DNA of 64,000 bases from Magnolia sinica (lineage: Eukaryota; Streptophyta; Magnoliopsida; Magnoliales; Magnoliaceae): positions 82,612,862 to 82,676,861 of the forward strand of contig NC_080584.1 of NCBI RefSeq assembly GCF_029962835.1. The letters run 5' to 3'. The position numbers and the translations under genes were made by a program. This document shows, in pieces, positions 8,095-64,000 of this stretch (position 1 is the stretch's first letter; each line of letters opens with the position of its first letter). The notes under the pieces were generated by a model. The model did not search any database, was not told the DNA's origin, and saw nothing but the letters and a program-made list of their open reading frames with translations.

Positions 8095-8100
8095 AGTTTT

Positions 8101-8118
8101 TCGCGCCATTGCCGGGGA
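8101..8118 (+). other. Primer-binding site, tRNA-Asp type
   Basis: TCGCGCCATTGCCGGGGA lies six bases after the 5' LTR. It is complementary, with two mismatches as I recall the tRNA end, to the 3' end of plant tRNA-Asp. That is the primer used by Athila elements. Confidence 0.8.
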
Positions 8119-32282: not shown

Positions 32283-32321
32283 AATATCCAATCCGCATCC
32301 CATGTCGCCCCCAAGATGGAC

Positions 32322-32948: not shown

Positions 32949-33000
32949 AAGATGGACAACCGTTCATCATGTTTTTTTTATTTTTATTTTTATTTTTAAT

Positions 33001-33012
33001 ATATATATATCT
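33001..33012. repeat. Short (AT)n after a T-rich run
   Basis: A poly-T/TTTTTA run at about 32973-33000 is followed by atatatatatat. It is the same in copy B at about 63453-63494. Confidence 0.7.
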
Positions 33013-33208
33013 AGTTATTAAGTCATCCTTTTCCCATCAAGGAGTATGACTCACTTGGTACGTGGGGCAGCGTTTGAGTTATCGATCATGGGCTTGACTT
33101 GATGAATACAACCACTATCCCACACACATGCTTCATCGGCATGTGTGTGGTGAGGCCCTCCTGCTGAAGAGTCGGAAGAAAAAAAGAAGAAAAAAGAGGT
33201 AAGGGTTA

Positions 33209-33856: not shown

Positions 33857-34360
33857 GAGGGTTACGACCCCCACATCGACGGGGGAAAAAAATGCAGAAG
33901 TCTCTGTATAATCTTTTCTTCGATGCTTGGCTCCCGATTCTCTACCGTCTCACACTCCTCCAATTTCCCGCTAAAATATCTGGAATTCGTTAATTTCTAC
34001 CCCTTTATTTTCATCCAATATTTAAATTCTTCTGTATACGTTTCCTTTTTTTTTTTTCCTCTTCGAAAACCCATAGTGCCACGTGAATCATTAATTATCC
34101 ATCAAGCCTCGATCAAACATAGCATATGTCATAGGATTTTACAAATACGAAGCACGTGTTCGGAGAAGAATCAGAAAATGGAATGCCTGGTTTATAGCAA
34201 GAGTTCGCGATTTCCTGCTCGACTCAATCCGGCCTGATTTCTTTGCGGAATCTCCGAGAAATCCCCACAGACACTCTTCAATCAGCGAAGAAAGAGGGAA
34301 ATTGAAGAAAATAGCGTGAAAAATCATCGAAGAAAGAAGGAAATCGTACTTACCTGTCGA

Positions 34361-34401
34361 ATGGCCCACCTCCGCTCACCAATCTTCGCTACAGCCTACA
34401 G
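34361..34401 (+). CDS. ABC1 kinase exon 1
   Basis: 41 nt, ATG to AG, followed by gtactctcc. It is preceded by a purine-rich 5' leader. A 1,324-bp intron follows. Confidence 0.7.
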
Positions 34402-35334
34402 GTACTCTCCGATTTCTCTCTCTCTTTTTTTTGGAATTCATTTTTTTTGTTGATTGTCCACAACCCCACGTCGGCTTTTTATGGTCGTCGTGGGTTGTTG
34501 GCTACAGTGGGATTCGTGAGTCCCCTGCAATCAACCCGTGAGCGTCCATGAGTGCGTCTGTTGATATCCGAAAATAATGGAGGAGGAAATCGTGCGATAT
34601 CAACGATATCTGGATTTTGGTTTTTTTTTTTTTTAATTATCTTCCGGGGGTTATTGCACGGGTTTCGTCTCGCTGGGGGGCGATAACGATAATATTGGCC
34701 GATAGTATCAATATTTCGAACACCGGAGGGGACTAGTGGGTTCCTAGGTTAGTGAATAGGATCAACCAATTTGTCATGTAAGCCCTGCGGGTCAATGGAA
34801 CCACTGAATGGGCCACCCAACTGGATTTATGGTGTTTAAAGTTAATTGGACAGCTCTGGTGTTCCCCAATAATGGTTCAGCCAGTGTGTGGGATGATTTG
34901 CTTGGACCTGCTCTTGTATATCTGTATGATGGCTTGGATGCATCAATGTCTTTTATTTTTGATGAGATCCAGTATCTTGCCTCGAGGATAGAGAGGCAAG
35001 CCAGGAAGCTGATGTATCGTCCAATTAGGGTGTTAGTCAAGTGTGTATTTTTATCGGGAATTCCTTCCCTCTTCCTTAATACAGGCTCCTAATAATAAAA
35101 TTATTAATTTGTTTTATTAAGAAGTCTATGAGTATTCGCTATATAAAGCATGATTGTCTATCATCATGATCATCACACTCTTGTCCCATCTATTTCTGGT
35201 CAGCTTCACAGTTCCTGTTTTGCTAAAGATTTATGAGGACAAAAAAATAATCCTGACCCTGTTAATAAAAACTAAAGGCACTATCTTCAGTTAGTGAAGG
35301 GCCTATTTACATATGTTTGTATGCCTGTATCTTT

Positions 35335-35417
<83 letters not shown>

Positions 35418-38400
35418 ATGCCTGTGAGTTAATTTTTATTTGAATGCTTCATGCTTTTATACATAGATACATGCATACATATATATTCGTTTCTATTTCT
35501 GTATATGCTATGACTAACAGATGCAACACATATAATGACATAAATATCCAACATGTGTGTGCATCTGGTTTCGTATATCTAAAATATGCTTGAACTATTT
35601 AACCCAATGTAGTGTTATATCTTTTATTCTGAAGAGATAATATCTTCTGTTAAATTACCCTCTGCATTCGTTGGAAATTTAGTTAATGATATTAAAATAA
35701 ATTAACAATTTTCTTTGCATTTCAGGTTGTTGGCATTTGGAAACATTAGGAGAGTTGGGAATTTCTTTCTTGCAAGCCAAACATCTAACTTTTCAGTTGC
35801 GAGGGATCATGGGACACTTGCTACATTCGGACTATCTTCCACCCTATGCAGACTATATTCACAATATAAGCTTCCTAGTAGAGGGACAGTATACAAAGCC
35901 AAGGAAAATCTTTGTAGGAGTAGCTATTCTACGAACTTTTCTGTCCTTTCAGCAAGCAATTCTATGACACATCATGCCCAAGTTGCTTGGAGAAGGCTTT
36001 CTCAGATATGTTCATACAGTGGTCCAGCTTTTCCACCGATAAGTCGGATTGCATGTGCGGTTAGCTTGGCCTTCACCAGATCACACCTGGTTCCTAGTGT
36101 TTTTGCCTTCATTCTAGGAGAGGTAGCATGGACTCAGAGGACCTGGGCAGATGCAGAACCCTTCCCATCCCAGAATACACTATACACTCGAGCACAAGAC
36201 GGGCACATTTATTTCACTTCGTTATTTTTTTCATTTCTGGAGGGCTTTATTTTGTTTGTAAGAGCAATCTATTTGATGATTTTATTTTCTCCTACCTTAG
36301 CAATGGCTCCGTTCGCAGATTCTTTTGGTGTTCAGTTCAGGAAATTGTGGCTTCATCTGGTCCATCTTACTCTGGAAAGAGCTGGTCCAGCATTCATAAA
36401 ATGGGGCCAATGGGCAGCTACTCGACCAGATCTCTTTCCTAGAGATCTATGCACTGAGCTGGCCAACCTGCACAGCAAAGCACCAGCACACAGCTTTGCA
36501 TACACTAGAAAGACAATTGAGAAAGCATTTGGTCGCAAGCTTTCCGAAATTTTTGAAGATTTTGAGGAGGCACCCGTAGCATCTGGAAGTGTTGCACAAG
36601 TGCATCGGGCTTCTTTGAGATTTCGATACCCAGGTCAACAGGTCAAGCCCATTTTAGTTGCAGTAAAAGTTAGGCATCCGGGTGTTGGTGAATCAATTAG
36701 GAGGGATTTCACAATTATTAATTTGTTTGCCAGAGTTTCATTGTTCATCCCGACATTGAAGTGGTTGAGACTGGATGAAAGTTTACAGCAGTTTGCTGTT
36801 TTCATGATGTCTCAAGTTGATCTCGCGAGGGAAGCTGCCCATTTGAGTCGTTTCATTTATAATTTCCGCAGATGGAAGGATGTATCCTTTCCGAAGCCTC
36901 TATATCCGCTTGTGCATCCTGCTGTTTTGGTTGAGACATATGAGCAAGGAGAAAGTGTTTCGCACTATGTTGATGAGCTTGAGGGGAATGCTCGAGTTAA
37001 GCGTGCTCTTGCTCATATTGGGACTCATGCACTCTTGAAGATGCTTCTGGTATGCTCTCTACTTTGTCATTCCTTTATAAAAGACAAACTCTAGCAATTG
37101 CATGGATTTCATGAGCTTAAAAAATCATAACTAATAATCTGGCGTGATTATCAGATCAAGTTATCTAATGAACCAGTCTATATGCCAATGAAAAAGAAGT
37201 GCCAAGAATAAACTTGAATTCAGTTAAAGCGAAGCACTTGATGTGGACTAAGAGTGACCATTCTAATGTCAAACCATCTAAGTCTATGTTCTCTCATCTT
37301 ATTACCTTTTGGGGCTGCTCCTAAGTTCCCTAAAATGTGTTCATTTCAATTATATCCATCCTCTTGTTATCCATCCATCTCAACATCCTCATTCATGTGC
37401 ACTTATTCTATGAACATGTTGTTCCTTGTCCACCTACCTAGCATTCTCTCCCATAAAGCACTAATGGGAACCTGGGCAATGCATGAGAGAAAAAAGACAA
37501 CGAGAGAGAGATGATCTGTTCTATGTGAGCAATGGCCCTTTTTCTTTTTTCTTTTTTCCTGAAAGATATGTGATCAACGGCCTTTAAAGAAATGGTATAT
37601 AAAAATGGGTTAACCCTCTATATATGGTGGGAAAGTGATCCCCAGGATTGCTTTTGTAAGTGTGATTTGGAACATAGGCCATCCATGATATGGCCAGCTA
37701 AATAGACGATTTGATTTATGAATCAAGCTAAAGACTTCTCGTGAACTTGATGTAATGTTTATCAAATGTTTTCCACATTCCAAAGGACCAATGAAGATGT
37801 GCAACTTAGACATTTCAACTCATATACTTTCAAGAAGACAACAGTGAGAAATGTATGACTCTACATACCTCACTGGTCAGAGGGTGAGCTTTTCTTATTT
37901 TTTCATGCAAGAGAAGTAAAAATGAAGAGAGATGGTGGTTAAGGGATGGATGAGACATGGAGTATCAGGTCATGGTTTTTGCTGGGAGAGAGGTGGGTAA
38001 CGTCGATAGGTGTTTGTGTGTGTGTGTGGAGAGAGGGAGGGTCCACAAAGTTTGGTTGTTACATGCTCTTCCTATATGCATCCTTAAAAAACTCAAAAAG
38101 AGGGAGGGAGGGAACCAAAAACTTCAAAAAGGAAAGATCAAACTGAGAGGGCTGCCATGCAGGCAACTCCTTTCCAAAAAGCAAGTTCTTTTCTTGTATT
38201 AGATGGCCAGTCAGATGCCTTTGATTCATTGAGTGGATTTCATCCAAACATCATGGTGAGGCCCACACAACTTGTCACTACCTTGGCTTATGGAAGTGTC
38301 AGTGCTCCTGGATCATTCTCCTATGGTTTTAGAACTTGAAAACTTCACTCTTGAGTTGAGTAACTCAGTCGCATTTTTTCAAGTCTTAAACACCAAAACT

Positions 38401-41400: not shown

Positions 41401-42482
41401 TTGCTGAGAAGGCACTAAATTGGTCAAAATAAATAATATGTTGTGCTTTGAGAACAAGAACTTGGAACCCATAGTTTGCATCTTATAAGCAGAGTGGTGC
41501 TCATGTCACATGCATTGGTCTCTGTGTTGTGTTATATCTGGGTATCATGCGATGGGGGTAAGCTGCAGACTTGAAACCGTTACCCATTCTTGCTAGTTGT
41601 GTTGCTGTGCTGTTCATGTAAAAAAATAAAATAAAATCAAACAGGAGTAATTCAAGCTATTATTTTTGCAAAAATGTCTTCTGAGACATCATTACTTTTC
41701 AGGTGGACAATTTTGTTCATGCGGACATGCATCCCGGGAATATCCTTGTCCGTGTACCTCAGGCCAAGTCTTCACGTAAAGGACTGTTTAAATCCAGGCC
41801 TCATGTCATTTTCATTGATGTCGGCATGACGGCTGAGCTTTCTAAGAGTGATCGTGTGAATTTGCTGGAGTTCTTTAAAGCTGTTGCTGTTAGGGACGGC
41901 CGCACTGCTGCACAATGCACTCTAAGATTATCGAAGCAACAGAACTGCCCAAATCCAGAGGCCTTCATAGAGGTAATATATTAACCTTATCTTGGTAGAG
42001 AAGCACTTTCGAAGCCATTCATTGGTCATAACTTCGAGATAATGTTTTTGCTATTGATGAATTTCTGCTTGCATGCTTCTATTATGCTAGGTATTGAGCA
42101 ACTTTTTATTATTATTGTATATTCACTAAATCCATGGTTTCTGCGCTTGGTAAATTTCTGTTGTTAAATTCTCATGTAGTTGATTATTACTCTGTTAATG
42201 ACACACTGTATATCCTTGGCATGGTATTCCATAACAGTAATGGTGGCTGTAATGGCCACCGCTGTTACTGTTACGATACAGGCCGTAAAGGCCTTTACTG
42301 CCCTTCTTTTCTGGAAAAAAAAACCCCTGTTTCAGCCCTGTAACTGACCATTACAGGGCATTTTTCTATAATGTCCATTACGACCCCTTTATGCGTAACG
42401 GTTACCACTGTTACCGTTATGTAACCATGTTTGAAGACCTTGATCCTTGCTTCATTACTTGTGTGTGTGTGTGTGTGTGTTT

Positions 42483-42518
<36 letters not shown>

Positions 42519-43767
42519 ACTTTCTCAAGCATGGCTCTGCAGATGGTCTCTACAAAGGCATATGTACCAGGTTTTTGAAATCATTTGTGCGACATTGAAT
42601 GTCTTTGAATTTAGTAGTCCATTTTAAGTTTGTTAAGGAAGCTCTCAGGTGATTGGAAACTCCAATAATCAAGATAGGCATAGAAAGAACTAGAACAGAC
42701 TGATAATGGGTTGCTATTGTCATTATTCTTCTTTGCCATTTTGCCACCCCCAACCTCACAAAGAGAAACAGAAAAGTAAAAAAAATAAAATCTAAGCGAC
42801 AGACTGGGAAAACCATAGGAGGCTGCTATGGCTATGTCCAGGCTACTCAGTTTTAGCCCATATTGTTTGCGTGTTGTGCCCTTCACAACTATGGCAGGCT
42901 TCTGTCAGAAATGTGATTGCTTTGTGCGGTAACTCCTGTATATGATAATTTAGACTGCAGAAGTGTATGATTGTCAGTAAGGCAGAAGCTCTGTATTCTG
43001 ATCATGCAGAACCAGTGACTGCAATTTCATTAAGGTATAGATTATTGTTGGATCTCTTAATGTAGGAGGGTCTTTGGCCACTCGCATTCTGTAACTGTAT
43101 GTTTCAGTTGAGAACAGGCCAGTGGTGTCCAACCACAAACTGTTGTACTCTCCTTAGAACAGAGAGTTGCAGTATTTGAGTTAAAAGTTATACAAACTTA
43201 AATTTCTAATATTGATGTATTATACTTATGTGCTTTGTTCATCAGAATATTTCTTCTAAAATGTACATTTCTATGAGTTCTGCTAGGCCTGCCCTCACCT
43301 CTACATGTGGCCAGATAGTCCAATCTGGCACATGCACGGGACATAAGAGCAGGTGTCAGGTGGGGCCAGTGTTGATGACCTGATCCAAAAATTAGGGAGG
43401 CCACATTTTGATGTTGCCCACATCAGCAACTTTTTAAATCACCAGTAGGTTTCATAATCCTGTGTACTTTTATAGCTCTGCTTGTTTCTACTTTGCGTTC
43501 AATTTTCAGACTTGTCTGTGCTAACATTTTCTTACATCTCTTCCCAGTTTTTTTTTTTCTTTAATCAGACCACGGCATCTTGATATTTGTCTTTTACTGG
43601 TTTGACAATAGGAAGTTGGGAGGTCATTTGATTTCTGGGGCACCCCAGATGGTGATTTTGTCCATCCTGCTGAATGCATGCAGCAATTGCTAGAGCAAGT
43701 TCGGCGGCATAAAGTCAATATTGATGGCAATGTTTGCACTGTGATGGTGACCACTTTGGTTCTCGAG
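34361..43767 (+). CDS. aarF/ABC1-domain atypical kinase (ADCK2-like), exons 1-4
   Basis: Four exons join in frame: 34361-34401 (MAHLRSPIFATAY plus AG), 35726-37049, 41703-41972 and 43612-43767, 597 codons so far. All introns are GT-AG. Exon 2 holds a hydrophobic segment near residues 170-200, the family KxGQ motif as IKWGQWAATRPD, the alanine-rich loop ASGSVAQVHRA and VAVKVRHPGV with the lysine. Exon 3 opens with the catalytic VDNFVHADMHPGNILV and has FIDVGMTAEL in place of DFG. Exon 4 has FWGTPDGDFVHPAECMQQLL. The basic start suggests organelle targeting. Family members act in mitochondria or plastids in coenzyme Q and prenyl-lipid biology; the substrate here is unknown. The start ATG is chosen because its short exon joins in phase with exon 2. 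The terminal exon is not secure. Confidence 0.88.
35338..35413. repeat. (AT)n microsatellite in ABC1 kinase intron 1
   Basis: About 38 AT units without interruption. Confidence 0.97.
35726..37049 (+). CDS. ABC1 kinase exon 2
   Basis: 1,324 nt after the acceptor tttgcatttcag, ending at CTG before gtatgctc. It completes the arginine codon split with exon 1 and ends in phase 0. It carries the N-terminal region, the KxGQ motif, the alanine-rich loop and the ATP-binding lysine. Confidence 0.92.
38540..38890 (+). mobile_element. LINE ORF2 3' remnant in intron 2
   Basis: Plus-strand pieces resemble the zinc-binding end of a plant LINE reverse transcriptase: MPNVCILCMGN, then SHIFHN, and further WEIWKEMNNGTFNNL. 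Frames are broken. It meets an oppositely oriented LINE remnant tail to tail near 38.93 kb. Confidence 0.65.
38940..40095 (-). mobile_element. LINE ORF2 3' remnant with tandem partial copies, intron 2
   Basis: Minus-strand frame 39566-39282 includes FLWHYNVHPKIATFGWLVG and DHLFIHCPF, the zinc-binding domain at the end of plant LINE ORF2. The segment around the FLWH...ATFGWLVG coding stretch recurs at 39618-39720 (partial) and 39730-39950, giving three head-to-tail copies. Frame 40087-39770 is the most upstream copy. The sequence to about 40240 may belong to the same element but is not clearly recognisable. Confidence 0.7.
40245..40985. repeat. TATCGG-rich repeat, MITE-like, intron 2
   Basis: Both ends are crowded with gtatcg, tatcggc and gatacgg motifs in opposite orientation (for example gaatatcggtatcgtatcgg at the left, ccgtatcgtatc and gggccgatacgcc at the right). 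The centre is AT-rich. No coding capacity or clear target duplication. Confidence 0.45.
41000..41230 (+). mobile_element. Possible LINE 3' tail, intron 2
   Basis: This T-rich stretch contains a duplicated gtatagttct(a/t)g motif and ends in caacaacaaaaaataaaataaaat, an A-rich tail typical of LINE 3' ends. No coding sequence is recognisable. Confidence 0.3.
41703..41972 (+). CDS. ABC1 kinase exon 3
   Basis: 270 nt, phase 0 at both ends, acceptor ttacttttcag and donor gtaatata. It encodes the catalytic loop HADMHPGN and the metal-binding FIDVG segment. Confidence 0.93.
42219..42430. mobile_element. GTTAC-rich foldback MITE in intron 3
   Basis: The left end catggtattccataacagtaa and the right end (minus strand catggttacataacggtaac) are imperfect inverted repeats. 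An internal hairpin gtaatggtggc / gccaccgctgttac is also visible. Confidence 0.45.
42460..42515. repeat. (GT)n followed by poly-T, intron 3
   Basis: About ten GT units, then about 33 T with one A. Confidence 0.95.
43612..43767 (+). CDS. ABC1 kinase exon 4
   Basis: 156 nt, phase 0 at both ends, acceptor tttgacaatag and donor gtaatgcc. It encodes the C-terminal helices beginning EVGRSFDFWGTP and ending TVMVTTLVLE. Confidence 0.92.
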
Positions 43768-45616: not shown

Positions 45617-47874
45617 TTTAAAAGCAACGAGAATATATTAGATATATAAAAAAGGAAAAAGGATACAAGGGGCCTGCTGAGATAGTAGAGCCAAACCACA
45701 GGAAAAGAGAAAACTACAAGCCTAATAGAAGAAAATTGAAATCTTTAAGAAGAGGAACATTAGAGCCCCATTCGATAAGAAGTTGCTTCGCTCTCAATCC
45801 CACAGTTTCGGTCGAAGCTTGCACGTTGTTGAAACACCTATCGTTCCTCTCCTTCCAAACTGCCCACCAGATAACCATAATAGCCATTTTCCAAACTTTG
45901 GAAGTGATTTTATCCAGCTTGAAGCCGTGCCAATAAGCGAGAAAAGAGGAGGAAGAATCTGGCACGCAACCGACGACGCCGAAGCGAGAGAGGAAATCCT
46001 GGCGAATCTGAGAGATGAACGGGCAGTGCACGAGCAGATGGTCGACAGATTCATCACAACCCATGCAACAGAGACATATATTGGTGAGCTGCATACCTTT
46101 TTTCATAAGATTGTCTATGTTGAGGATCCGGTTCCTAGATGCAAGCCAAGCAAAGCAAATGAATTTTGGGGGGATGGGGTATTTTCGTATAAACGAGGAG
46201 ATCGAGGAGGTGGGGAGGGAGGAGGGGATGAGAGCAGTGTAAAGAGACTTCACCGAGAACTGAGAGGATTTATCTTTGGACCAGAGGATTTTATCAGGCT
46301 CGGATTGGGAAGGAGTAACCGTGGATAAGCAGAGATAAAGATCAGCACGGAGAGGGATCTCCCAATCGTGAAGATGTCTACGGCAGCTGATGTCCCAAAC
46401 CACACCCGACTCCGAATAAGTGAAGAAGTTGTCCACAGGGCTATCTTTCTTGACTGCAAGGCAATAAATGGCAGGGAAGCTATCCTTTAAGCGTCTATCC
46501 CCGATCCAACGGTCCTCTCAAAACCGAATAGACGACCCATTTCCCAACTGATAAACTACATTCTCAATCACCGGATTCTTGCAGCGCATGATTCCTTTCC
46601 AAATGCGAGACGCCCTGTAAGCGGAAGAGTCCCTTGTCCACCAACCTCCCGGGGATGACGCATATTTCCCTTTGATGACCATATTCCATAGAGCTTGAGG
46701 CTCCGATCCGAGTCTCCATGTCCATTTGCCTAGGAGGGCCCTGTTCATCACCTTCAGGTTTTTAACGCTAGCGCCTCCATTGCGAAAATGTCTGCAGACC
46801 TCTTCCCAATCGAGGAGGTGGAATTTCTTCTGGTTTTCCTTGCCGCTCCACAAGAAATCCCTCCTCAGCTTGTTGATCCGACACAAAACAACAGACGGGC
46901 AGGGAAATAGGGACATGAAATATATGGGGATGTTCGACAAAGCAGCTTTTATAAGTGTGAGCCTACCCCCCAATAGACAATAGTCTGCATTTCCATCTGG
47001 CCAGAGTCTTTTGGAGTTTCTCAACCACCTTGTCCCACATCGAAATCGGAGGAGAGCCAATGGCAAGGGGAAGGCCCACGAAGAATGTCGGGAAGGAGGC
47101 AGTAGAGCAACCTAAGAGTAAGGCAAAGGAGTTTAGTTCCAGATCTGAAACATTTATTCCAAAAACTTTGGACTTAGCCATGTTGATACGTAAGACAGAA
47201 ACTGCCTCGAAACATCTGAAAGTTGTGTGCATATAATCAATGGCTTCAGAGTCTGCTTTGCAGGTAATCAACGTATCGTCTGCGAATTGAATATGAGAAA
47301 TCGACAAGTTAACCCCTGGCATCGAAATGCCTTTGAACAGACCAACCCCTTGGCCCTTAAGCAGCATTTGAGATAAGGCCTCCACAATCATCAGGAAAAG
47401 AAGAGGGGAGAGAGGATCACCCTGACGAAGACCTCTCGAGCTAGGGAAGAAACCTTTCGGAGTTCCGTTTAACAGGATCGAAAACGTGTGGCGATTCAAC
47501 ACACGCCTTCATCCACGTCCTCCATTTCTGACCAAAAACCATCCGGAGAAGCATATAATGGAGGAAATCCCAGTCCACATGATCGTAAGCCTTGTCAATG
47601 TCGAGTTTACAAAAAACAGATTTGATCCCATCCTTATGGCAGGTATGAAGAACTTCATTCGCTATCAGCGCACCATTGATGATCTACCTGCCTTTAATAA
47701 ATGTGTTTTGATACTTGGATATCAGCCTATCCATCATAGAAGCAAGGCATAAGGATAGGATTTTAGCCAAAATTTTATACGGGTTGCCAATGAGGCTTAT
47801 AGGCCTAAAGTCGGAGAATGAAGAAGCCCTAGGGACTTTGGGAAAAAGGGCAATAAAAGAAGCTCCGATTCCCT
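45617..47874 (-). mobile_element. 5'-truncated LINE with 17-bp target-site duplication
   Basis: The insertion is framed by TAGAACTTCCTATACTT at 45600-45616 and 47875-47891. On the minus strand it starts inside the reverse transcriptase (FRPISLIGNPYKILAKIL near 47.83-47.77 kb). It continues with RGLRQGDPLSPLLFLMI and the catalytic FADD (frame 47502-46963), then 47066-46518, and ends in the zinc-binding domain (46436-45714, ICLCCMGCDESVDHLLVHC). There is a frameshift near 47.5 kb and one near 47.0 kb. The A-tail at the left is very short. Confidence 0.88.
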
Positions 47875-47891
47875 TAGAACTTCCTATACTT

Positions 47892-50207: not shown

Positions 50208-50210
50208 TGA

Positions 50211-50930
50211 TGTAGAGCGGGTCGCAGACAGTTTCATGGCCAAGATGGATCAGAAAAGGCCCGGTCGACGACAGAAGTGATCTGGACCATCGGACCTTAG
50301 ATCAGGCGTATCTCACAATCCGGAATGAGTTATCTGACGTAAAATATATGATTTTGGGGTAGAACGAGCTACTTTAGCCAACCAACCCAGCTACGCCGGG
50401 TTACGCAGCCCGAAATTGCGAAAAACCCCTTGATCGATGGTCGTTTCCTTGTTTTAATTTCGTTTTTACTATAAATAGTAAGTTTTAGTTTGATTATAAC
50501 TCTTCATCCGTCGAGCTTTAGGAGTTGCGCCCAACGTGAAAAGAGCTTAAAATAATTAGGGGAACGGTTTGGTGAAGCCAAATAGGACACTTACTATTTT
50601 TGGCCGAAAACCTTGCGCACTAGTAGACATCACCACCGTCTATAAATAGTAAGTTTACTATTTATAGTAAGTCGTGGATTCTAGGAGTTTGAGTTGTAGT
50701 TTGATTATGATTTCTTTCCCATTGCTTGATACCCTTATTTAAAGGGTTGTGAACTCGTTTTAATGATGCATCAATCAATTTCAAATTTATTAGAATTTAT
50801 TTCTATTTTCTTCTTTCTTTCCTCGTGGATTCGAGAAGTCTCTGTGAGGAGTCCAGAGAAGTTCCGTGGATTCGGAATAGTTATCCTCTTGAGGAAGACG
50901 GTGCTTGACCTCACGTCCTCCCTGCGTCGA
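50211..50930 (+). mobile_element. 5' LTR of a chromovirus-type gypsy element
   Basis: The bounds are inferred: the start TGTAGAGCGGG follows directly on the LINE remnant and the end is just before the PBS. The LTR carries ctataaatag-type TATA motifs near 50470 and 50640. No second LTR is in the window, because the element is cut at 54326. The exact start may be 50208 (TGATGTAG). Confidence 0.5.
50640..50667. repeat. Perfect 13-bp inverted repeat with TATA core
   Basis: Arms ctataaatagtaa and ttactatttatag are separated by two bases. A third copy of the arm motif (actataaatagtaagttt) is at about 50469. The hairpin lies in the LTR promoter region. Confidence 0.8.
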
Positions 50931-50932
50931 TT

Positions 50933-50944
50933 TGGTATCAAAGC
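50933..50944 (+). other. Primer-binding site, initiator tRNA-Met type
   Basis: TGGTATCAAAGC differs by one base from the canonical TGGTATCAGAGC complementary to plant initiator tRNA-Met. Confidence 0.8.
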
Positions 50945-51195
50945 GAGGTTTCTCCTCGGATTGATGGCTTTTAAGACCGGTCGGGCAACAATCCCATGGG
51001 CGGTGCTCAGGGAACTTATCTTTAACGGCGGCGGCTTTTGCGAAGTAGCGTAACGAGAGAATCAGCAAGCCATGCAAGGTGCAGGCTTCCATCGACCGCA
51101 TAGCGGATCTCTTGGCGGAAAACCTAAGGCAACTCGTGTTCTGGTGGCAATCCTCCACCTCTAATTAATCGCCCGATCGCAGGATAGTACCGACG

Positions 51196-54100
51196 GTGCA
51201 TTCAAGGGTCATTCCCGAGGAAGGGGGCTCCGGTGAGGAGGAAATCGATGACATACTCTTCCAACACCCCAGACATGGCGGCGATCGAGTAGATCGAACG
51301 GATCGAGAATTCAAGATGAGGGTTGATATTCCTAGCTTCAATGGCCAACTACACATTGAGGATTTCCTCGATTGGCTTTATGAAGTTGAGCGATTTTTTG
51401 ACTATATGGACATCCCTGAAGCAAGGAAGGTCAAGCTTGTGGCCCACAAGTTGAAAGGAGGAGCTTTAGCTTGGTGGGAACAACTGCAACTCCCGCGAAC
51501 CAGGCAGACGAAAGCATCAATCCGCACCTGGTAGCGGATGAAGCAGCTACTACGTGGCCGATTCCTCCCTAGCGATTACGATCAGGTATTATTCCAACAA
51601 TACCAAAATTGTCGACAGGGTAGTCGGTCGGTGAGAGAATACGCAGAAGAATTTTACCGCTTGGGCCGCGCGTAACGATTTGGTCGAGATTGAATCGCAA
51701 GAAGTCGCCCGATTCAACGGTGGATTGCGTATGGCTATCCAGGATCGGGTCCAGATGCGGTCTCCGGACGATGAATGATGCGATCAAGTTGGCTACTCGT
51801 GCATAAGTGCAACTTGAACGCCCTAACACACGGACCTATCCTATCTCTAGGTTAGCCGCGACACTGCCCCAGGGAATTGCACAGCCTAAGGGGAAGGAGC
51901 CCGTAGGAGCACGCACTCAACCTCCTACGTTTGAGAACCGAGATCAGGGAAGTGGGCAAGCTAGACCCCAAAGGGGCGTATCGACTGTTGCTGGTCCAAG
52001 TAGAATCCCGAACCCTTATGCTCGGCCAAGGCCCGATAACTGCTATCATTATGGCCAACCGGGCCACCTATCAAATACTTGTCCCCAGCGAAAAGTGGCA
52101 AACCTCGCCATCAATGATGGTAGTGCTGATAACGCTTATGAAGATCCAGATATTGAAGAATAGGAGCATACCACCGAGGACGAGGCAGATGATTCAGGTT
52201 GGATTCAGCAAGATCACGGCGAGTCGCTTGTCGTGAGGCGACTATTATATGCGCCAAGAAAAGAAGTGCATCCACAGCGGCATAACATCTTCCGCACTAG
52301 GTGTATGGTGAATCGAAAGGTTTGTGACGTGATCATTGATAGTGGGAGTAGCGAGAATATCGTCTCCAAGGTCATGGTGGAAAAATTGCAATTGAAAACG
52401 GAGCGTCATCCCTCTCCATATACAATCGGTTGGATCAAGAAGGTCAGCGAAACAAAGGTAACTGAACGGTGCACCATATCCTTTTCAATTGGCAAACATT
52501 ATAAGGATGAAGTAGTATGCGATGTGGTCAACATGGAAGCATGTCACATACTACTCGGTCGGCCCTGGCAATCTGACCGTGATGCCACTCATAAAGGGCG
52601 AGATAATATATATGTCTTCGTCAAGGACGGCCGGAAGACCATATTGGCCCCTATGGATCCAGAGGGACCACCTGAAACTTCTAAAGTGGAGGGCCGTTTT
52701 CTCTTAACCATACGGGACTTCGTGGAAGAATCAAAGGAAACATGACAGACTTATGCATTAATTGTAAAAGGGGAAGAACTCGAGCTTACCAACATTCCTG
52801 AAATACTAAGGCCCCTGCTACATGAATTCAAAGAAATCTGGCCCGATGACTTTCCCGATGGGTTACCCCCCATGCGGGATATCCAACACCATATCGACTT
52901 TGTCCCTGGGTCCAGTTTACCGAATCGTCCCCATTATCGAATGAGTCCGAATGAGTGCGAGATTCTGCAGGGACAAGTAGAGGAGTTGATTCGTAAGGGT
53001 CTTATTCGGGAGAGCATGAGTCCATGTGCTGTACCAGCTCTATTAACTCCAAAGAAAGATGGGAGTTGGCGCATGTGTGTCGACAGCCGAGCCATCAACA
53101 AAATCACCATAAAATACAGGTTTCCTATACCACGGTTGGACGATATGCTAGACATGCTAGAGGGTGCAAAAATATTCTCTAAATTGGACTTAAGGAGCGG
53201 CTACCATCAGATTCGAATACGGTCGGGTGATGAGTGGAAAACAGCCTTTAAGACCAAGGAAGGATTATATGAATGGATGGTCATGCCTTTCGGTCTTTCG
53301 AATGCGCCTAGCACATTTATGAGATTGATGAACCAAGTTCTGAAACCTTTCATTGGGCGGTTCGTTGTGGTTTACTTCGATGATATTTTGATATACAGTC
53401 AAGATGAAACCACCCATATGGAACACCTCAAGAAGGTCCTTCAAGTGCTCACTAAAAATAAACTGTACCTCAATTTAAAAAAGTGCAGCTTCATGACTGA
53501 TAGCCAATGGTTCCTGGGTTTTGTCGTCACATCCACGGGCATTCGGGTGGATGAGGAAAAGGTAAAGGCAATCAGAGAATGGCCGGTTCCTACAAATATT
53601 CACGAAGTGCGAAGTTTTCATGGACTGGCGACATTTTATCGTCGGTTCGTGAAAAATTTCAGTACCATTGTGTCACCAATCACAGATTGCATGAAGAAAG
53701 GGCAGTTTCAGTGGACCTCAGTTCTTGTACTTCCCAACTTCGACAAACTATTTGAAGTCGAATGTGATGCCTCATATGTCGAAATTGGGGGAGTTTTGTC
53801 TCAAGGAGGTAGGCCGGTAGCCTTCTACAACGAGAAACTTAGCAATGCACGTAAGAAGTGGTCTACATATGAGATCGAGTTATACGCGGTGGTCCAGGCA
53901 CTGCGGCACTGGCGACATTATTTGATTCAAAGGGAATTCATACTTTACACGGACCATCAAGCTCTCAAATTCATTAATAGTCAAGCTAACATTAACCGTG
54001 TGCATGCTAGATGGATCTTGTTTTTGCAGGAATTTACATTCGTACTAAAACATAAGTCAGGGCAACAAAACAAAGTAGCTGATGCATTGAGTCGCCGTGC

Positions 54101-54326
54101 AACTTTGTTAGTCACTATGAGCAATGAGGTTGTCGGGTTCGAGCGCCTCAAAGACATATATGCCGATGACGACGACTTCAAGGACGCATGGGTTAGATGC
54201 TAAGAAGGTCACCCCGGCGACTTACATATGCAAGACGGGTTCCTTTTCAAGGGAAATCGATTGTGCATCCCAAACAGTTCGCTAAGGGAACAGATAATCC
54301 AAGAGCTACATGGAGGTGGCCTCAGT
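51196..54326 (+). pseudogene. Gypsy gag-pol (chromovirus, CRM/Reina-like), truncated at integrase
   Basis: Order: gag (51196-51660, RVDIPSFNGQLHIEDFLDWL), a frameshift near 51665, a zinc knuckle at about 52038 (CYHYGQPGHLSNTC, one cysteine replaced by tyrosine), protease VIIDSGSSENIVS (about 52331), RT (52872-53500, [11 protein letters not shown]), RNase H (about 53760-54100, FEVECDASY) and the integrase N-terminus (SSLREQIIQELHGGG). Stops lie at 51532, 52161, 52743 and 54201. The reading frame after 51807 is otherwise kept. The sequence breaks off at 54326 after GGLSG and joins the duplicated Tekay LTR. Lineage is judged from RT and RNase H style and is less sure than the superfamily. Confidence 0.85.
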
Positions 54327-57300
54327 GGTCGAGCAGGTGCCCAACTCCCAAGTTCCAACACATCACTTATGCAACATAGATAATGATGATTAAATGTTGT
54401 CTGTATTAGTGCCTTAAACATGAGTGAGATTATACCAAAATAGCATATCATATTTCAGAGACAGTTAAATTTTGCAAGCGGAGGACTATGATAGATATAT
54501 AAAGTATATAAACTAATGTAGGTCTCCAAAGTGTGAACATATTACCAAGTTAAGTATATACATGTATACTCCAAAAATGAACCAAATGAATATACATGGG
54601 TGTTCCAAAAGTGCAAAAATAACAAGTGTAATGGGGTCTAATCAGCATCCCTATAACCTCGTCGATCAGATCACGGTCTACTTAGACCCGCCTGATAGCT
54701 GCATGTAGGAAAACTCCTCGTCATCGTAAAAATTAGGCTCCACCTCGCGAGTATCGCCATCATCTGCAACTAAACCGGAGTCTGGTTGGTGTTTAAACAC
54801 CGTCCCAGAACGTGGGAGTGAGTAATCAACTCAGTGGAGCTATAAAGCAAAGGTTAACATGTTATCAATTCAGTCAAGCAGTAATGATAAAATAATACAA
54901 CAATCAGGTCATACGTACTTTTATTAATGCAAGGATGGTATGTGATAATGATGCATGCCCTTGCTTACACTCCCTCTATGACACCATCTTACGATCGCGG
55001 CATACAGGCCTTCCTCTGTGCACTTCCTCACCAAAGCACTGTGCAATGCGATGTATGGTCGTGTTAGCCAAGTTCTTAATTGGGCATATTCATATAGTAG
55101 GATTAGGAAGCTAAGGCACCTCCCTTTATATCATATACCTAAACATTGATCCATCTAGGGTCCTCAATCCTAGAAGTCACATACGATAGGCAGTTTTCAG
55201 GTCACTACGGAGAGGCTCATCACCTCAGCGCAGGCCTGGTTTATACTCTAGTTTACTATGGAAAGGCTCGTCACCTCGATGCAGACTTAGTGTATACTCG
55301 AGGTCACTACGGGCTCGTCACTTGATCATAGGCTGACAGCTCGAATACAGTGTCCCATACCACCGTATTCGGCTCACGAATCTGGGTTACTCACTGGACA
55401 CTACGGGGAGGCTCGTCACCCCAGCGTAGGTCGACAGCACGATCACGGTGTCCCATACCACTATGCCCGCCGGTTCATGAGTCTTAGCGGATCGAGGTAC
55501 CAAGGTTAAACGGGCTTTACATTGGTAAGTTGGTACCTTAGATTCAAACAGTAGCGTTCATATATGGTGAACATAGATTATGCCAATTGAGTTGCTTGAC
55601 AAGCTCGACTGGTACGAGCGTACGTCGAGTTGATCGACATGGAGCGCGTAAGCACTCTGCGTGGCCTAACCACTGTCGACTAGTAGCGTACAACTCGGAT
55701 TCCTCGAACCTATCTGGTGTAGCGAAATGACCTCAGCCACTAACTCAGAAATCATTACTGATCGCTTGGATTACGTCATAGCCTCAAACACATTCCAAGC
55801 AATTGTATACGCATGTAGTAGCCAAAGACAGCATGTGACAACTAAAATCGAATATAAATCTTACTTGAGTAATTCGACAAAACACATACTACACATGCTA
55901 CCGTACATAGGCATCTCATCCTTAACTCACATAGCAGTAAGATAGGTTATATAAAAGATACTAAACCATAGTTAAGGGAATTGAGAATCCTATCTCAACA
56001 TCCTCATCATATGCATTTAAATAAGCATTTTTACATTTAGGCACTTTATCAAACACTTAGGCTACATATATCATATACATGTAATAAAGTAGTTATAACA
56101 GGTATTATAGCAAAACCCTTTACAGAGGGTTCACCATACGTACAACAATCATGTATTCTTAGTCAATGAACATGTCAAGCATAAATCATAACTCCATACT
56201 CATTCAATCATTTCAACAAACATGTTGAATGCATTTAAAATCAACATGGTCTACACACACATATATATAGTATATGGAAAATGTCGTATTTACGCACATA
56301 AGACAGCAATCAAGTCAATCATAAATCATTACTGACATTGAAAGCCTTGAAAACCATAACCTAAACATTCATAGTCTGCACCTTTCACCAGTAGACTCGT
56401 AACGAACTCAGTTTAAATCCTAAGTCTTTGTTTACAGCACGACGACAACCTATAGCATGAAATAGGTTAATTATTCCACCGTCTGCTCTATTTGAATCCC
56501 TAAAACATATTAGGGTTAGGATTTCTTACCCAAGTACGGAGTCAGAATCACCGGAATAGTGATACAGTAACAGTGGTTAAGCACGTGGAGTGACAGAGAA
56601 GAATCCCAAGAACGATCCACCACTCTCTCACTTTCTCTCTGTTTCCTTCTCTTTCTTCTCTCTTCTCTCTCTAGGGTTTGTAGATTCGTATGTGAAGGGA
56701 GATAGACGGTTTAAGGCCCTTATATAGGCCCAGAACTGATAGGAATGGCCCTAGAGCCGTAGTATACTTAAGTTATAGCCAAGAAGTGGTCGTTTTGGTC
56801 CAACGGAGCACATCTGGAGGCCCCTTTTCTACGTATGGTCTGGAGTAGGTCCTCTGACATTAGATCTAGGTCCAGTTAAGTTTTCGGTTCGATTGGATTT
56901 ACAGATTGACCGTGGAGGATCAGTTTCAGTTCAACAGTCACCATTACTCGATCAGGGCCACCGGTACACTGACCAGTGTTGGAAATTTTTTCTGATCCGA
57001 GGGTGTAGTTAGGTCAGAATCTGACGGTCTGAAACCTTAGATTTGGCTTGCAAGCGAGCGACTCAATTCACTTAAGTTTCAGTTCACTTTCTAAAGGTAT
57101 TCACGTTTCTCACACACTTCGCTCCGGGCTCAAGTTGTGCGTTTCGGGATACTATCTGGACTTAATTTTTGAAATGGTAGTCAAGCCCAATAAGGCTGTT
57201 ATTAGTGTATAGTTTCGCGGTAATTGGACTTTAGACGCGCGGTCCAGGTCCAATACGGAGTTTCATGATGCTCCCGAGAGCAACTGGGTTTTGAGATTGA

Positions 57301-57506
57301 TCTTAGATTTCATGATAATATAGAGTGAATGACTCTACAAGTTTTGAGTCTTGCAGATCATATTTAAAGTGATAAGTGTCAATTTCACAGGTAATCTAGT
57401 TTAACGCTTAGTTAATTCTCGTCTAATTTCTAAAGGATTTGGTCCTGAGTAATTTCTGTTTGAGGTGGTACTCGAGTCTTTGTACGAATTTTTTCAAGAT
57501 GTTACA
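54327..57506 (-). mobile_element. Tekay/Del-like LTR, copy B, lacking its last 21 bp
   Basis: Homologous to 23851-27038. The minus-strand start TGTAACATC is at 57506 with the same polypurine tract outside it. The terminal 21 bp (ending GGGCGTTACA) are replaced by gypsy integrase sequence at the duplication junction. Confidence 0.88.
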
Positions 57507-57529
57507 ATCTACCCCTCTTAAAGAAAAAT

Positions 57530-58910
57530 TTCATCCTCGAAATTAGTACCTTTTCGTACTCCTCGAGAATCTGAGGGTAGTTCTTTCGAACTTCGGCTTC
57601 TGTTTCCCAAGTAGCCTCTTCCTCAGTGTGGTGCGTCCACAGAACCTTCACCAGTGGAATTACTTTACTGCGCGGTACCTATTCCATCCGATCTAGGATA
57701 CGCGTCGGATGCAAGACATAAGTAGCATCATCACTCAATTGCACCTGTTCCCACTTGATAATGTAGAAAGGATCAAGAACGTATTTCTTCAGCATAGATA
57801 CATGAAATACGTTGTGCACGCCGACGAGTGGTGTGAGCAAAGCAAGACGGTAGGCCACCACACCCACTCGGTCCAGTATCTGGAATGGGCCAATGAATCT
57901 CGGCATAAGTTTCCCCTTCTTTCCAAACCAAAGGACTCCTTTCATGGGAAAAAATTTCAGAAACATGTGGTCCCCAACCTCGAACTCTAGTAGTCACCAT
58001 CTCGTATCGGTGTAACTCTTCTGTCTACTCTGCGCTGCAAGAAGTCGACGCTTGATAATGTTGATCTTCTCTGAGGTCGCCTGTACTAACTCCTGGCCAA
58101 TCAAACTCTTCTCGCCAACCTCTGCCCAGTAATGCGGTGCTTGACAGGGGCGCCCATATAATGCCTCATAAGGGGCCATGCCAATGCTCGCCTGAAAACT
58201 GTTGTTATAAGAGAATTCTACATAAGGAAGACGGTCATCCCAACTGTCCTTGAAATCAAGCACACAAGCTCGCAGTATATCTTCCAACACTTGATTTACC
58301 TGTTCCGTCTGCCCGTCAGTTAGTGGGTGGAACGTGGTACCGAACTTCAGTTTCACACCCATTGCTTTTGGATATGAGTCTAGAAGATAGATGTGAATCA
58401 CGTGTCTTGGTTCGACACGATCTCCATAGGAACTCCATGCAGACGCATAATCTCCTTGATGTATAACCTGGCTAACTCGTCTGCGGAGTTCGAAACTCTA
58501 ATCGGGAGAAAATGGGCCGATTTTGTCAACCGGTCCACGATCACCTAGATGGAGTCATGTCCTTTCCTCGTCTTTGGTAGCCCTAAGATAAAATCCATAG
58601 AAATGAAATCTCATTTCCATTCAGCTATGGGCATGGGTTGAAGCAGTCCAGGAGGTCGGCGATGCTCTGTCTTGACCTGTTGGCACGTGAGACAACGGGA
58701 CACATATGCCTTCATGTTATCCCACCAGTACGAGCGCTTCATGTCTCAATACATCTTCTTACTGCCGGGATGCATTGTCAACTTCGAATTGTGAGCAGTC
58801 TCGAGAACTTCCCTTCTCAAGTCCGAAAGGTTTGGGACGCATAAACGGCCACGATAACGTAGACCCTCATCCGTACCAACTCTTCATTCTGAGTCTTCAC
58901 TATCTTCAAA
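57530..58910 (-). pseudogene. Tekay-like integrase and chromodomain remnant, copy B
   Basis: Minus-strand frame 58401-57994 spans part of the catalytic core (FHPLTDGQTEQVNQVLED) and the segment beyond. Frame 57966-57679 covers the post-core part (VHNVFHVSMLKKYVLDP), and a chromodomain follows at about 57670-57530. This copy is less broken in the core than copy A. The H2C2 part near 58640-58900 is out of frame. It joins Athila sequence at the same point as copy A. Confidence 0.83.
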
Positions 58911-61383
58911 GCTATTGCAGATCTACTGTAATTTAAATCACAATAAACCATTAAGAACTGAAAGTATTCCTTTAAAATCAAACTAGAATCAATGAAGGTT
59001 CAACATAAACATGAATCAAAGTAAAAGAAACATCCCATCACACTACAAGCTTCACCTCTTAGCCCTAGCTAAGAGGTTTAGCCAACCATAGACATGATTG
59101 AACTAAAATCTCTTAAGAAAAACATAAAAATAACTAAGAAAAATGAAGAAAAACTCTTGGTGATGGCTTCTCCATGCTTTTTCTCCACTCCTCAAACCCT
59201 AGAAGATACCTAGGGATTCCCTAGGGACCCCTATTTATAGTTTGCAACTTAAACTTTCACACAGAGTTGGAAATTTTCAGAAACCGCCTCAAATTTCTGC
59301 AATTTGTGTGCTGTCTGCGTAACCTTAAATTGGTCGAGGATAACCCTCGACTAGTCGAGGGTCGCCTTTAACGGGTTAAGGGTTTCCTTCGACTGGTCGA
59401 GGATGACGGGGATTTAGAAGATTTGGTCGTTGGAATTCGAGTCGAGGAATCCTAGACTAGTCGAGGAAGGCAGATTTTTAGGGTTTCTTTTCTTCTTTTC
59501 AAGTCTTCAATGCTCTTCATTCCTCACTTGATTTTCTTGGATCCTTGGCATGTGAATTCTTCATTCTTGGTCTTATAAGATCCATCTTTAGCTTTGGTGA
59601 TTCTTGAGCGTTAAATACATGCTTTTAACATCCTTTTCAATCTAAGCTCTTAAATTTATCTTGCAACACAAACATGGTTAAAATAGAACATTAAACATTA
59701 TCATGTTCATAAAACCAAGTAATAAATGGGGTCCAATATGCAATATTTGACCCTCAACACAATCCCCAACTAGCACTTTGCTAGTCCCGAGCAAAGTATG
59801 CGAAAAATGAACTTTAATGCGTAATGTTCAAACATTTATCAGAAAACAATCTTTTGTATAATCAAGTATGAATTGAGTAGACTCAAGATGAGGAAGTGAA
59901 AATTTGAAATTCTAGAGCCGAATCACATAAGCAATTATTCAAATAAATTCTTTATCCATTAGGTCAGAGCATAGTTCACATATTAAGTTGTTTTTCAATG
60001 TGTTAAGTGAAAATACTATCTTTTCATAATGTTAGCCATGCTCATCACTTCAAGATTAGTTGAAAACCCAAGTACTGATTCCGAACTTATCCCATTTTCC
60101 TTCTTTTTTTTTTTTTTCCAGTTTTTAATTTTATATCGACGGTCATTTGTATTTATTCAGTCTTTTCATCTTTTCTCTTTTCTTTCAGATTTTTCATTCT
60201 TTTTCAGACTTTTTCAATCTTTTCACCATACATGACCCTTTTTGTCAATGTCTTATTTTTTAACTGGTTCTTTTCTTCTTTTAAGGTAGATAAAATTCTC
60301 CAGACTTGGTTCTCAATATCTTTCAATGATCATCATACTAACAATCAAAAAGTCTAGTACTATTCACAAAAAACAATTTGAATATGTCATAATATTCAAA
60401 CTTTCTCTTAATCAATTAAATGTAAGAACCATAAGTGATAAGTTACTTAGTTACTCCAACTCCAATAATTTAAAATTCAATTTCTATCTTATTTTCATAC
60501 TTAAAACAGTCTTAAATACACAACTTATTACTTTCCAAACAGATAAACATTGAAATTTTTTTAAATTTTTAAAATTTTTTTTTGCAAATTTTGCTCAAAA
60601 CTTAGAAAATACTAATTACTTTACCTAATCTCTCATCCCCAACCTAAAATCTACATTGTCCTCAGTGTAAAAGAAATAAGTATGATTAGCAAAAGAGACA
60701 ACGTAATTGAAAGAGAAGTAACGGAGAGAGAGTATCTGATGAAAGAATTTTGAGGCTTTTTTTTTTAAAGGATCTCAGCGTGAAGGTGGGTTAGCACAAG
60801 AATTAAACAACCAAAAAGCAAACTATCCTAAACAACGGAAGCAAACTATCCTAAAATGGCGAAAATCAAATTATCCTAAACAGCGGAAAACAGTAAACCT
60901 AACTACACCTCCGTCAGACTAGGAGATAATTCTGATAAACTCATTCAGAGGTATGGACATGTCCTTTGAATCAAATTTCTCAACAAATTGATTTAATCGA
61001 TGTCCATTTACTTTGAATTCATTGTCACTATTCAGATTCTTTATCTCAACAACCCTATGAGGATAAACATTGGTAATAGTGAAGGGGCTGGTCCAACGAG
61101 ATCAGAGTTTGCTCGGAAAGAGATGTAACCAAAAATTATATAAGAGGACTTTCTGACCTGGTATGAATGATTTTCGAAGAATGTGTTAGTTATGAAACAC
61201 CTTCATCCTGTTCTTATAGATTCTCGAGTTCTCATATGCATCATTTCAAATTTCTTCAAGTTTATTTAATTGAAGTTTGCGTAGCAAGCCAGCGTTGTCC
61301 AGATTGAAATTTAAATTCTTAATCGCCCAGTAGGATCTATGTTCCAACTCCACAGGCAAGTGACATGCCTTCCTATAAAACCA
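58911..61383 (-). mobile_element. Athila fragment, copy B
   Basis: Same structure and breakpoints as 28435-30893. The LTR start (minus strand TGTTGAGGGTC) is at 59759. Noncoding sequence and the end of integrase follow to about 61383. The frame around 61250-61380 still reads ACHLPVELEHRSYWAIKNLN. Confidence 0.82.
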
Positions 61384-61804
61384 TGGACCAACCTGATATT
61401 TGGACATTGGGCCTACATAGACCGATGCATCTTTTGGTAAGGGTGATGTCACACCGTGGCGGGTCTCACCCAAGCCCACCCCCACTTTGCTCGCACATAA
61501 TGTCTCTTGCAAGAAATTCGCAAGAGACTGCCTATTACACACATGTATGTAAGCACACGCGCACCCATAAAAAGAAATTCAGCCCATTCCAAAAATCAGG
61601 TGGGCCCTACCAAGCCATGTTCTAGCTATGATTTCACGTGATTTCATACGGTGTGACCCACCTGAATTTCAGATATGATTGATTTTTGGAACATCCATTG
61701 ACCTAACCCATCAAGTGTACGTTCTGGACGTCCTGCAGATATCACGGTGGGGCCCAATGACCTCTTGAGAAGCGCTAATGAGGTCGACCTCTTAAGACCT
61801 TTTT

Positions 61805-62218
61805 CTATACATATAAATTAGGTACGGCAAAATGTGAAGAGGGAAGAGATAAGCCATCAATCAGTGAAACACATAAATTTAAATCCCAACGCTTTGCGTT
61901 TGGAAATTGTCCAAAATTACTGACACTAGACATAATAGAGATATCGTCAGTTATTGAAAAATGAGTATCCATGCTTGGTTCTACCATAAGACATGGTGTA
62001 GTAGTTGAACAGTAGATCCCGGAAAGATTCATACCTTTCATCAGGAGACGCCATTGCATCAATGATCTGGCCAAAAAGATTACTGCAACCTCCTCATTAC
62101 GTGGTGTACATGTCCAAAGTTTAAAATCGGTGTATCGGCTATCTTTTTGCTGACCATCGGCGATGTAGTTGGCCAATATGCCATTACGACAATTTTTCCG
62201 ACTATAAACCCTGCTCAT
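61805..62218 (-). other. Unrecognised 137-codon open frame, copy B
   Basis: The ATG-initiated frame on the minus strand has no recognised domain (start MSRVYSRKNCRNG). It ends close to the foldback element. Copy A has the same sequence with small frame-breaking changes, so it is not clearly under selection. It could be part of an unidentified element or chance. Confidence 0.2.
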
Positions 62219-62242
62219 GTCGCCGGACGCGGATCAGCTACT

Positions 62243-62766
62243 GACAGGTTGAGTACCGAGACTGGCTATTGAAGTGACCTCATCAAGTTTTGTAGGTCAC
62301 ACCATGATGTATGTTTTGTATCTACACCGTCCATCCATTTGGAGAGATCATATTAGGGCATGATCCAAAAAATGAATCAGATCCAAAGCTCGAGAGGACC
62401 CCACCACAAAAAACAGTGGGGAGAGTGGTGCCCACCGTTAAAAAGTTCTAAGGGCTATGAAAATTTTCGATCAAGATAATATTTGTGTTTTCCCTTATTT
62501 CATGTCTTCTTTAACACAAGAACCGGTGGGATTCTCAAATAAACATCATGGTAGACCTTAAGAAGGTTTCAACGGTGGGCGTCACTCTCATCACTGTTTT
62601 CTGTGGTGGGATCCACCTCAGCCTTGGATCTGCGTCGTTCTTTGAATCATGCTCAAAAATGATCTCTCCAAATGTATGGACGGTGTTGATACAACACATA
62701 CATCATGGTGGGGCCCACAAAAGTTGGTGATGTCACTCAGTGGCCAGTCTCGCTACTCAACCTGTC
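62243..62766. mobile_element. Foldback element, copy B
   Basis: 524 bp. The terminal GACAGGTTGAGTA is perfectly inverted at the right end (TACTCAACCTGTC... allowing for one internal change). It is better preserved at the ends than copy A. Confidence 0.72.
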
Positions 62767-62805
62767 AATATCCAATCCTCGTCCCATGTCACCCCGAATA
62801 GGGAG

Positions 62806-63432
62806 GGAAGTGGATTGGCTGGTGTACCACACACTAGCTCCATAGCTGCTGTATTGATGCCAGCAAGTTCCGTGGGTCACATCATGAGGTATGTGTTATA
62901 TCCAAACTTTCCATCTATTTTGCCAGCTGGCCTTAAAGCTTGAGCCGAAAAATAAGGTAGATCTAAAGATCAAGTGGACCACACTGCGAAAAAAAGTGGG
63001 AGATTGAATGTCTATCATTGAAACCCTTTCGGGGGTTACAGGAGTTTTTGGATCAATATGAAATTTGTTTTTCCTCTTTATTCAGGTATTTGCGACCTTA
63101 TGAACAGATTAGATCGAAAATAAATGTTATGGTGGGCCTATGAAGTTTTTAATGGTGAAAATCATTATCTCGGCTATTGTGTTTTGGTATGAAAATCATT
63201 TTCCCCGCTATTTTGTGTGTGGTCCATTTGAGCTTTGGATATGAATCATTTTTTGGCTAATGCCCTAAAATGATCTCAAAAAATGAATGAACGAACGATG
63301 TGGATATAATAAATACATCATCATGGGCCTTGTAACTTTAATCTCCTTTAAACCGTTTGTACAACTTGGAGCTCGAGGAGTGTCGGCGCTTGTCTTCGCA
63401 CGACACATATCTACACCAGCCAATCCGCTTCT
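62806..63432. mobile_element. MULE-like MITE, copy B
   Basis: 627 bp like copy A. The right flank keeps AAGATGGAC (63433-63441). The left flank reads aatagggag, so the left duplication has mutated in this copy. Confidence 0.72.
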
Positions 63433-63691
63433 AAGATGGACAACCGTTCATCATGTTTTTTTTATTTTTATTTTTATTTTTAATATATATATATCTGGTT
63501 ATTAAGTCATCCTTTTCCCATTAAGGAGTGACTCACTTGATACTTTGAGTTATCGATCATGGGCCTGACTTGATGAACACAACCACTATCCCGTACACGT
63601 GCTTCATCAGCACATGTGTGGTGAGGCCCCCCTGCTAAAGAGTCGAAAGAAAAAAAAAGAAAAAAAAGAAAAAAAAAAGAGGTAAGGGTTA

Positions 63692-64000
63692 GGGCTGAAA
63701 GTTGGGCAGGTTCAACCTGATCGACCCGTGACCGACTCGACATTGGGTTGGGCTCAGGATGTGTTGGGTTTGGTCTCGAGCTTGGGTTATATAAACACTA
63801 ACCTAATAAAGGTTAGGTTGGGCTTGGGTTGAAGTCTCGGATTGCTCGACCCAGTTCAAACCCGATCATTGTATAAGTTATAAATGATAATTGAGTGCGA
63901 ATAGTATATGTTGAAGGCAATAGGAAATTCCAGTGCCAGGTCTTATTGGTCCACGCCATTTCCTATGACTCAAGCTAACAGGATATGCTATATTTCTCTC
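63692..64000. mobile_element. hAT-like MITE, copy B (cut by window end)
   Basis: Starts GGGCTGAAAGTTGGGCAGG as in copy A. The right end would lie about 340 bp past the window. Confidence 0.65.

Follow-up and report, generated by a model that had tools for sequence, protein, structure and literature searches.

A direct repeat on C12 of Magnolia sinica

The window analysed here is a 64,000-nucleotide stretch of the Magnolia sinica reference genome (RefSeq assembly GCF_029962835.1, contig NC_080584.1, here C12, positions 82,612,862-82,676,861). It contains one copy and the beginning of a second, in direct orientation, of a block made up of a nest of transposons and most of a gene for an ABC1-type kinase, with half of a gypsy retroelement lying between the copies. 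Genome searches covered the M. sinica assembly (1.8386 Gb in 127 contigs), and sequence was fetched for 70 kb to the right of the window and 20 kb to its left, giving 154 kb examined in all; positions above 64,000 are on the window scale extended rightward along C12.

Within the window, positions 23,869-33,515 and 54,324-64,000 form one direct-orientation BLAST alignment of 9,750 columns. This bears out an original prediction, made from the letters of the window, that the sequence from 54,327 to the window end follows 23,872-33,517. Homology is not lost just past 64 kb, the outcome that the prediction had named as telling against it; the copies stay collinear for 16.7 kb beyond the window end and then stop, at 50,207 in one and 80,692 in the other, short of the further 20.8 kb that had been expected. 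The first copy (U1, 23,872-50,207, plus strand) spans 26.3 kb and holds the upstream transposon nest and, from the kinase gene, exons 1-4 with a portion of intron 4. The second (U2, plus strand) occupies 54,327-64,000 in the window and extends, by its alignment to U1, to 80,692. The two differ at 932 of 26,195 sites. A direct segmental duplication with a unit of about 30.46 kb had been proposed: the direct repeat and the common descent of its copies stand, but not the unit, since collinearity covers 26.3 kb. No N, the mark of an assembly gap, occurs between U1 and U2 or anywhere else in the 154 kb, and the repeat is real as a feature of the assembly.

The left edge of the copies (23,872 in U1, 54,327 in U2) lies 21 bp inside a long terminal repeat (LTR), as had been predicted. 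This placement is confirmed because the seven other loci of the LTR family that were inspected all align further out, six of them to 23,846-23,851 and one to 23,861. The LTR belongs to a gypsy remnant (23,851-27,035, minus strand); its outer end is taken from other family members, its right end and strand are putative readings of the sequence, and the clade label "Tekay" is that of the original prediction and not a result of this analysis. An integrase remnant of the same element, detected by tblastn with gypsy relatives, follows at 27,678-28,413 (minus strand). At about 28,448 it meets a second, truncated remnant (28,448-30,870, minus strand) that is kin to a gypsy element at 7,101-16,648. 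An element with 224-bp terminal inverted repeats, 82% complementary, lies at 31,741-32,300, with strand unassigned.

Of the 40 genome places that were scored (of 12,317 candidates), two contain the whole of the transposon-to-transposon joint near 28,448, and these two are U1 and U2. Internal breakpoints between unrelated elements are shared by the copies, which, as the prediction had argued, rules out independent insertions. Because U1 and U2 alone among the 40 scored places cross the joint, their common descent is secure. Over the LTR the two are about 92% alike; the seven other family loci reach at most 90.7% in matches of at least 800 bp, the exception being one 481-bp piece of another family locus at 93.6%.

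The ABC1-kinase gene in two copies

An open reading frame at 35,706-37,094 contains an ABC1-kinase exon, with a PF03109 domain at 139 bits and 99% identity to an M. sinica protein (P0002); the domain, together with a translation that matches a known member, places the gene among the ABC1 atypical kinases. On the plus strand, exon 1 lies at 34,361-34,401 in U1 and 64,815-64,855 in U2, exon 2 at 35,726-37,049 and 66,209-67,532, exon 3 at 41,703-41,972 and 72,186-72,455, and exon 4 at 43,612-43,767 and 74,106-74,261. Translated, exons 1-4 of both copies equal P0002 at 597 of 597 residues. Exon 5 was not found within the window; it lies beyond U2, at about 88,961-89,080, the only place on C12 that covers it among the scored places. 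Without this exon, the U1 gene copy is missing the last 39 residues.

Both ends of the gene may have had dealings with mobile DNA. Exon 1 falls within a dispersed repeat (34,223-34,722, no strand assigned), so that the protein, as annotated, seems to begin in an exonised transposon. That repeat has 38 other scored places, at 74-88% identity, among 677 candidates. In the stretch 88,500-89,400, exon 5 and about 160 bp of the preceding intron have 94% copies on C15, C5 and C11, as if this piece had been picked up by a mobile element. Intron 4 carries a LINE-like (long interspersed nuclear element) reverse transcriptase remnant in both U1 and U2 (45,714-47,508 in U1, minus strand).

Another copy of the locus, about 95% alike in its longest stretch (the first 6.5 kb), is found on C3 (C3:85,101,258-85,120,934). 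It begins at 34,722, exactly at the end of the exon-1 repeat. Its matched exon stretches hold no stop, and it runs past the position of the gypsy element to the end of the fetched sequence. A further local copy, at C12:82,760,318-82,761,364 (147,457-148,503 on the window scale), matches the intron-4 stretch 80,593-81,592 at 89% over about 1 kb; to its right, the exon-5 region is absent among the scored places.

U1 and U2 differ by seven synonymous and no nonsynonymous changes over 1,791 bp of coding sequence. When these are polarised with the C3 copy as outgroup, four fall on U1 and three on U2. Over 12,267 sites in five aligned stretches the same outgroup assigns 53 changes to U1 and 71 to U2, numbers that are not different (p = 0.13). 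Were U1 an unconstrained pseudogene, four synonymous changes out of four would have a probability of 0.003. A conditional test on all seven changes takes the branches as equal and U2 as under full constraint; it returns p = 0.001 for a U1 that was free all along, and at the 5% level it allows unconstrained time for at most about a third of the divergence. The reasoning also assumes that the lack of exon 5 makes the U1 protein useless. In its coding sequence the truncated copy gives no sign of relaxed selection. The all-synonymous differences and the tests argue that the divergence between U1 and U2 probably arose, for the most part, with both copies under selection, most simply as alleles.

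A single gypsy element and its empty site

The stretch from the end of U1 to the start of U2 is the 5' part of a gypsy element (50,208-54,326, plus strand), running from the LTR start to the zinc-finger region of the integrase; it belongs to U1 only and ends at the joint with U2. Pfam protease, reverse transcriptase and RNase H domains, with an LTR start common to many copies, identify it as Ty3/gypsy. About half of a high-copy element is present, and it makes up the remaining 4.1 kb of the supposed 30.46-kb unit. The LTR start at 50,208 is common, within 4 bp, to all 39 other scored places (of 7,050 candidates), and a query from the integrase end matches 39 further scored places with 97-98% identity.

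Neither U2 nor any other part of the 154 kb examined contains a partner of this fragment. The target site of the element is uninterrupted, and so empty, in both U2 and the C3 copy, and U2 continues past the site as intron towards exon 5. The prediction that gypsy integrase would resume near 84.8 kb thus failed: in a tblastn search with gypsy relatives, the stretch from 59 kb to 134 kb, 84.8 kb included, gave no gypsy domain, and U2 has the empty target site and then intron instead.

At the joint itself (54,327-54,328, no strand), GG is common to the gypsy element and the LTR. All 11 of the other gypsy loci inspected read CTCAGTGG followed by ACACC (10 loci) or ATACC (1 locus), and the LTR at the joint reads GG followed by TCGAGC. 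Because the gypsy loci have A after GG and the LTR has TC, the overlap is GG alone (2 bp). The four bases GGTC had been suggested as microhomology between the two parents; GG survives and TC does not, and a 4-bp microhomology is ruled out by the A after GG in 11 of 11 loci. An overlap of at least 2 bp is expected by chance in 16% of joints. Both sides of the joint are in high-copy repeats (2,567 and 5,877 first-look candidates), and apart from GG the breakpoints have none of the extended homology that non-allelic homologous recombination needs.

Two levels of divergence

In the window part of the alignment, counted from the exact joint, 665 of 9,571 aligned sites differ (6.95%, with 537 transitions and 128 transversions), a higher figure than the roughly 5% first estimated; there are also 36 indels, the largest of 21 bp. 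C-to-T differences occur about equally often in the two copies and are commonest at CG and CHG sites, a pattern expected of transposons that are methylated on both sides. Over the full length of the copies, the upstream block (10.2 kb, 10,208 sites) shows 7.0% divergence and 4.1 indels per kb, and the gene block 1.38% (220 of 15,987 sites) and 1.4 indels per kb. The best single change-point lies at 35,026. The transition is gradual: sequence ahead of the start codon is fairly conserved, and intron 1 opens with diverged sequence that still belongs to the dispersed repeat. Divergence is 0.6-1.0% in introns 2-4 and 2.1% in the LINE together with the stretch that follows it. Transversions in the upstream block are four-fold those of introns 2-4 (p ~1e-14) and 2.7-fold those of the LINE and following stretch (p ~2e-6). 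Methylation alone is insufficient as a cause of the step from 7% to 1.4%, since transversions differ too; a wider rate difference in heterochromatin is a possible cause.

The published description of the genome puts heterozygosity at 1.21% in the tree that was assembled and at 1.12-1.38% across trees (PMC10999834). The gene block fits alleles, because its 1.38% is near the 1.21% of the assembled tree.

Two probable alleles in series

The reading towards which we lean is that U1 and U2 are two alleles of one M. sinica locus, placed head to tail by a false haplotype duplication in the Oxford Nanopore Technologies (ONT) assembly. An allelic origin as such, whether the joint is an artefact or a real one, is very probable. 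It is favoured because the gene block shows close to allelic divergence, because the gypsy element is in U1 only and its site is empty in U2 and on C3, and because U1 lacks exon 5 yet all seven coding differences are synonymous. One allele (U1) would carry a gypsy insertion in intron 4 and the other (U2) would not. The assembled sequence would follow the allele with the insertion as far as the middle of the gypsy element, restart in the other allele just inside the LTR 30 kb back, and run on from there to the end of the gene. The assembly would in this way have written two haplotype paths in series, a heterotype false duplication, with the joint as a presumed assembly error. The original prediction had mentioned a haplotype artefact as a caveat; the near-allelic divergence of the gene block and the truncated copy without relaxed selection now make it the leading explanation.

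The published description of the assembly offers ways in which this could happen. SMARTdenovo and WTDBG contigs were merged with QuickMerge, scaffolded with Hi-C, and the gaps closed with ONT reads, whose N50 was 25 kb (PMC10999834), less than the 26.3 kb of the copied block. Contig merging, ONT gap closing and a read N50 below the block size are all means by which two haplotypes could be written in series, and a gap between the copies that had been filled with ONT reads would show no N. Ko et al. described in 2022 how false copies can lie side by side on one scaffold, in some cases bridged by erroneous gap filling (PMC9516828).

Several observations weigh against an artefact. No N gap lies between U1 and U2, and by the published figures the assembly is not inflated, either in size (1.84 Gb against an estimated 1.9 Gb) or in duplicated benchmarking universal single-copy orthologues (58 of 1,614); low-depth haplotigs are also said to have been removed from it (PMC10999834). 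Older copies exist on C3 and at C12:82,760,318, and real duplication has therefore occurred at the locus. Artefact and real joint were weighed here from the assembled sequence. The weak point of an allelic origin is the upstream block, whose 7.0% divergence is unlike average heterozygosity and about five times the published value, with transversions and indels raised as well. Such a figure could be the product of a deep haplotype, of a faster rate in heterochromatin, or of an older duplication followed by conversion.

The main rival to an assembly artefact is a recent real event, possible although we hold it to be doubtful, in which two homologues, one broken in the gypsy element and the other in the LTR, were joined at these breaks with the 2-bp overlap. 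Such a joining would give a tandem duplication, with two diverged alleles in cis and half a gypsy element frozen at the joint, and would leave a complete gene downstream and a gene copy without its last exon upstream. It explains the single gypsy element, the empty site, the allelic level of divergence and the intact coding sequence, and it agrees with the gapless joint in the assembly and with the earlier duplications of the region represented by the C3 and C12:82,760,318 copies. However, it needs a rare exchange between homologues with no homology at the breakpoints. The overlap of 2 bp is no more than chance often gives, and both sides of the break are in repeats of the kind where assemblies fail.

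An older real duplication, of the age implied by the 7% of the upstream block, is improbable. The gene block would later have been homogenised by conversion, a gypsy element would have inserted into U1, and a deletion would have fused it to the LTR of U2. This sequence of events explains the step from 7.0% to 1.38%, the change-point at 35,026 and both transversion contrasts (four-fold against the introns, 2.7-fold against the LINE and following stretch), but it needs four events, and the change in divergence is gradual, not abrupt. Nonsynonymous changes would moreover be expected in the truncated U1 gene since the conversion, and it has none. A simple tandem duplication of a 30.46-kb unit accounts for the direct orientation of the copies and for their collinearity over the first 26.3 kb, but is rejected as highly implausible by the right flank, where 50,208-54,326 is not repeated, the target site is empty and no integrase resumes near 84.8 kb, unless the gypsy element was later lost from the second unit without trace.

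If the copies are a false haplotype duplication, as we think likelier, then the reference genome of an endangered tree contains a 26-kb duplication that needs correcting, and perhaps a superfluous partial ABC1-kinase gene as well. The case would also show how alleles can be recognised without reads, from a transposon in one copy, an empty site in the other and a coding sequence that is intact although its copy is truncated. A real joint would be a clear example of a duplication produced by the joining of two homologues in trans.

Other features of the window

The two LTRs of the gypsy element at 7,101-16,648 differ by 5.8% (57 of 981 sites, Kimura two-parameter distance 0.061), and the one snoRNA match from Rfam, to snoR71, falls inside the element (9,464-9,570, minus strand). 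An anomalous tRNA whose anticodon has two bases, called by ARAGORN within U2 (55,594-55,679, minus strand), is probably a chance match.

Comparison with known duplications

Both readings, assembly artefact and real joining, belong to known kinds. Tandem segmental duplication by illegitimate end joining yields head-to-tail copies with one novel joint and little homology there, and the M. sinica locus has all three features. It differs in that the second unit lacks the insertion found at the end of the first. Self-duplication of a single chromatid therefore fails, unless the gypsy element was later lost, or was inserted later and a deletion followed.

The interchromosomal copy on C3 resembles U1 and U2 in having exons 2-4 with their introns and in continuing beyond the gypsy site. 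Unlike U1, it lies on another chromosome and has no exon 1, no gypsy element and no LINE-bearing stretch (45,617-47,876).

The heterotype false duplications described by Ko et al. (PMC9516828) usually, though not always, have an assembly gap between the copies, whereas there is none here, and part of the present copy lies far above average heterozygosity. Shared with the present case, if it is read as allelic, are two alleles that appear as neighbouring paralogues on one scaffold, a disturbed gene model, and a divergence, here that of the gene block, near the heterozygosity.

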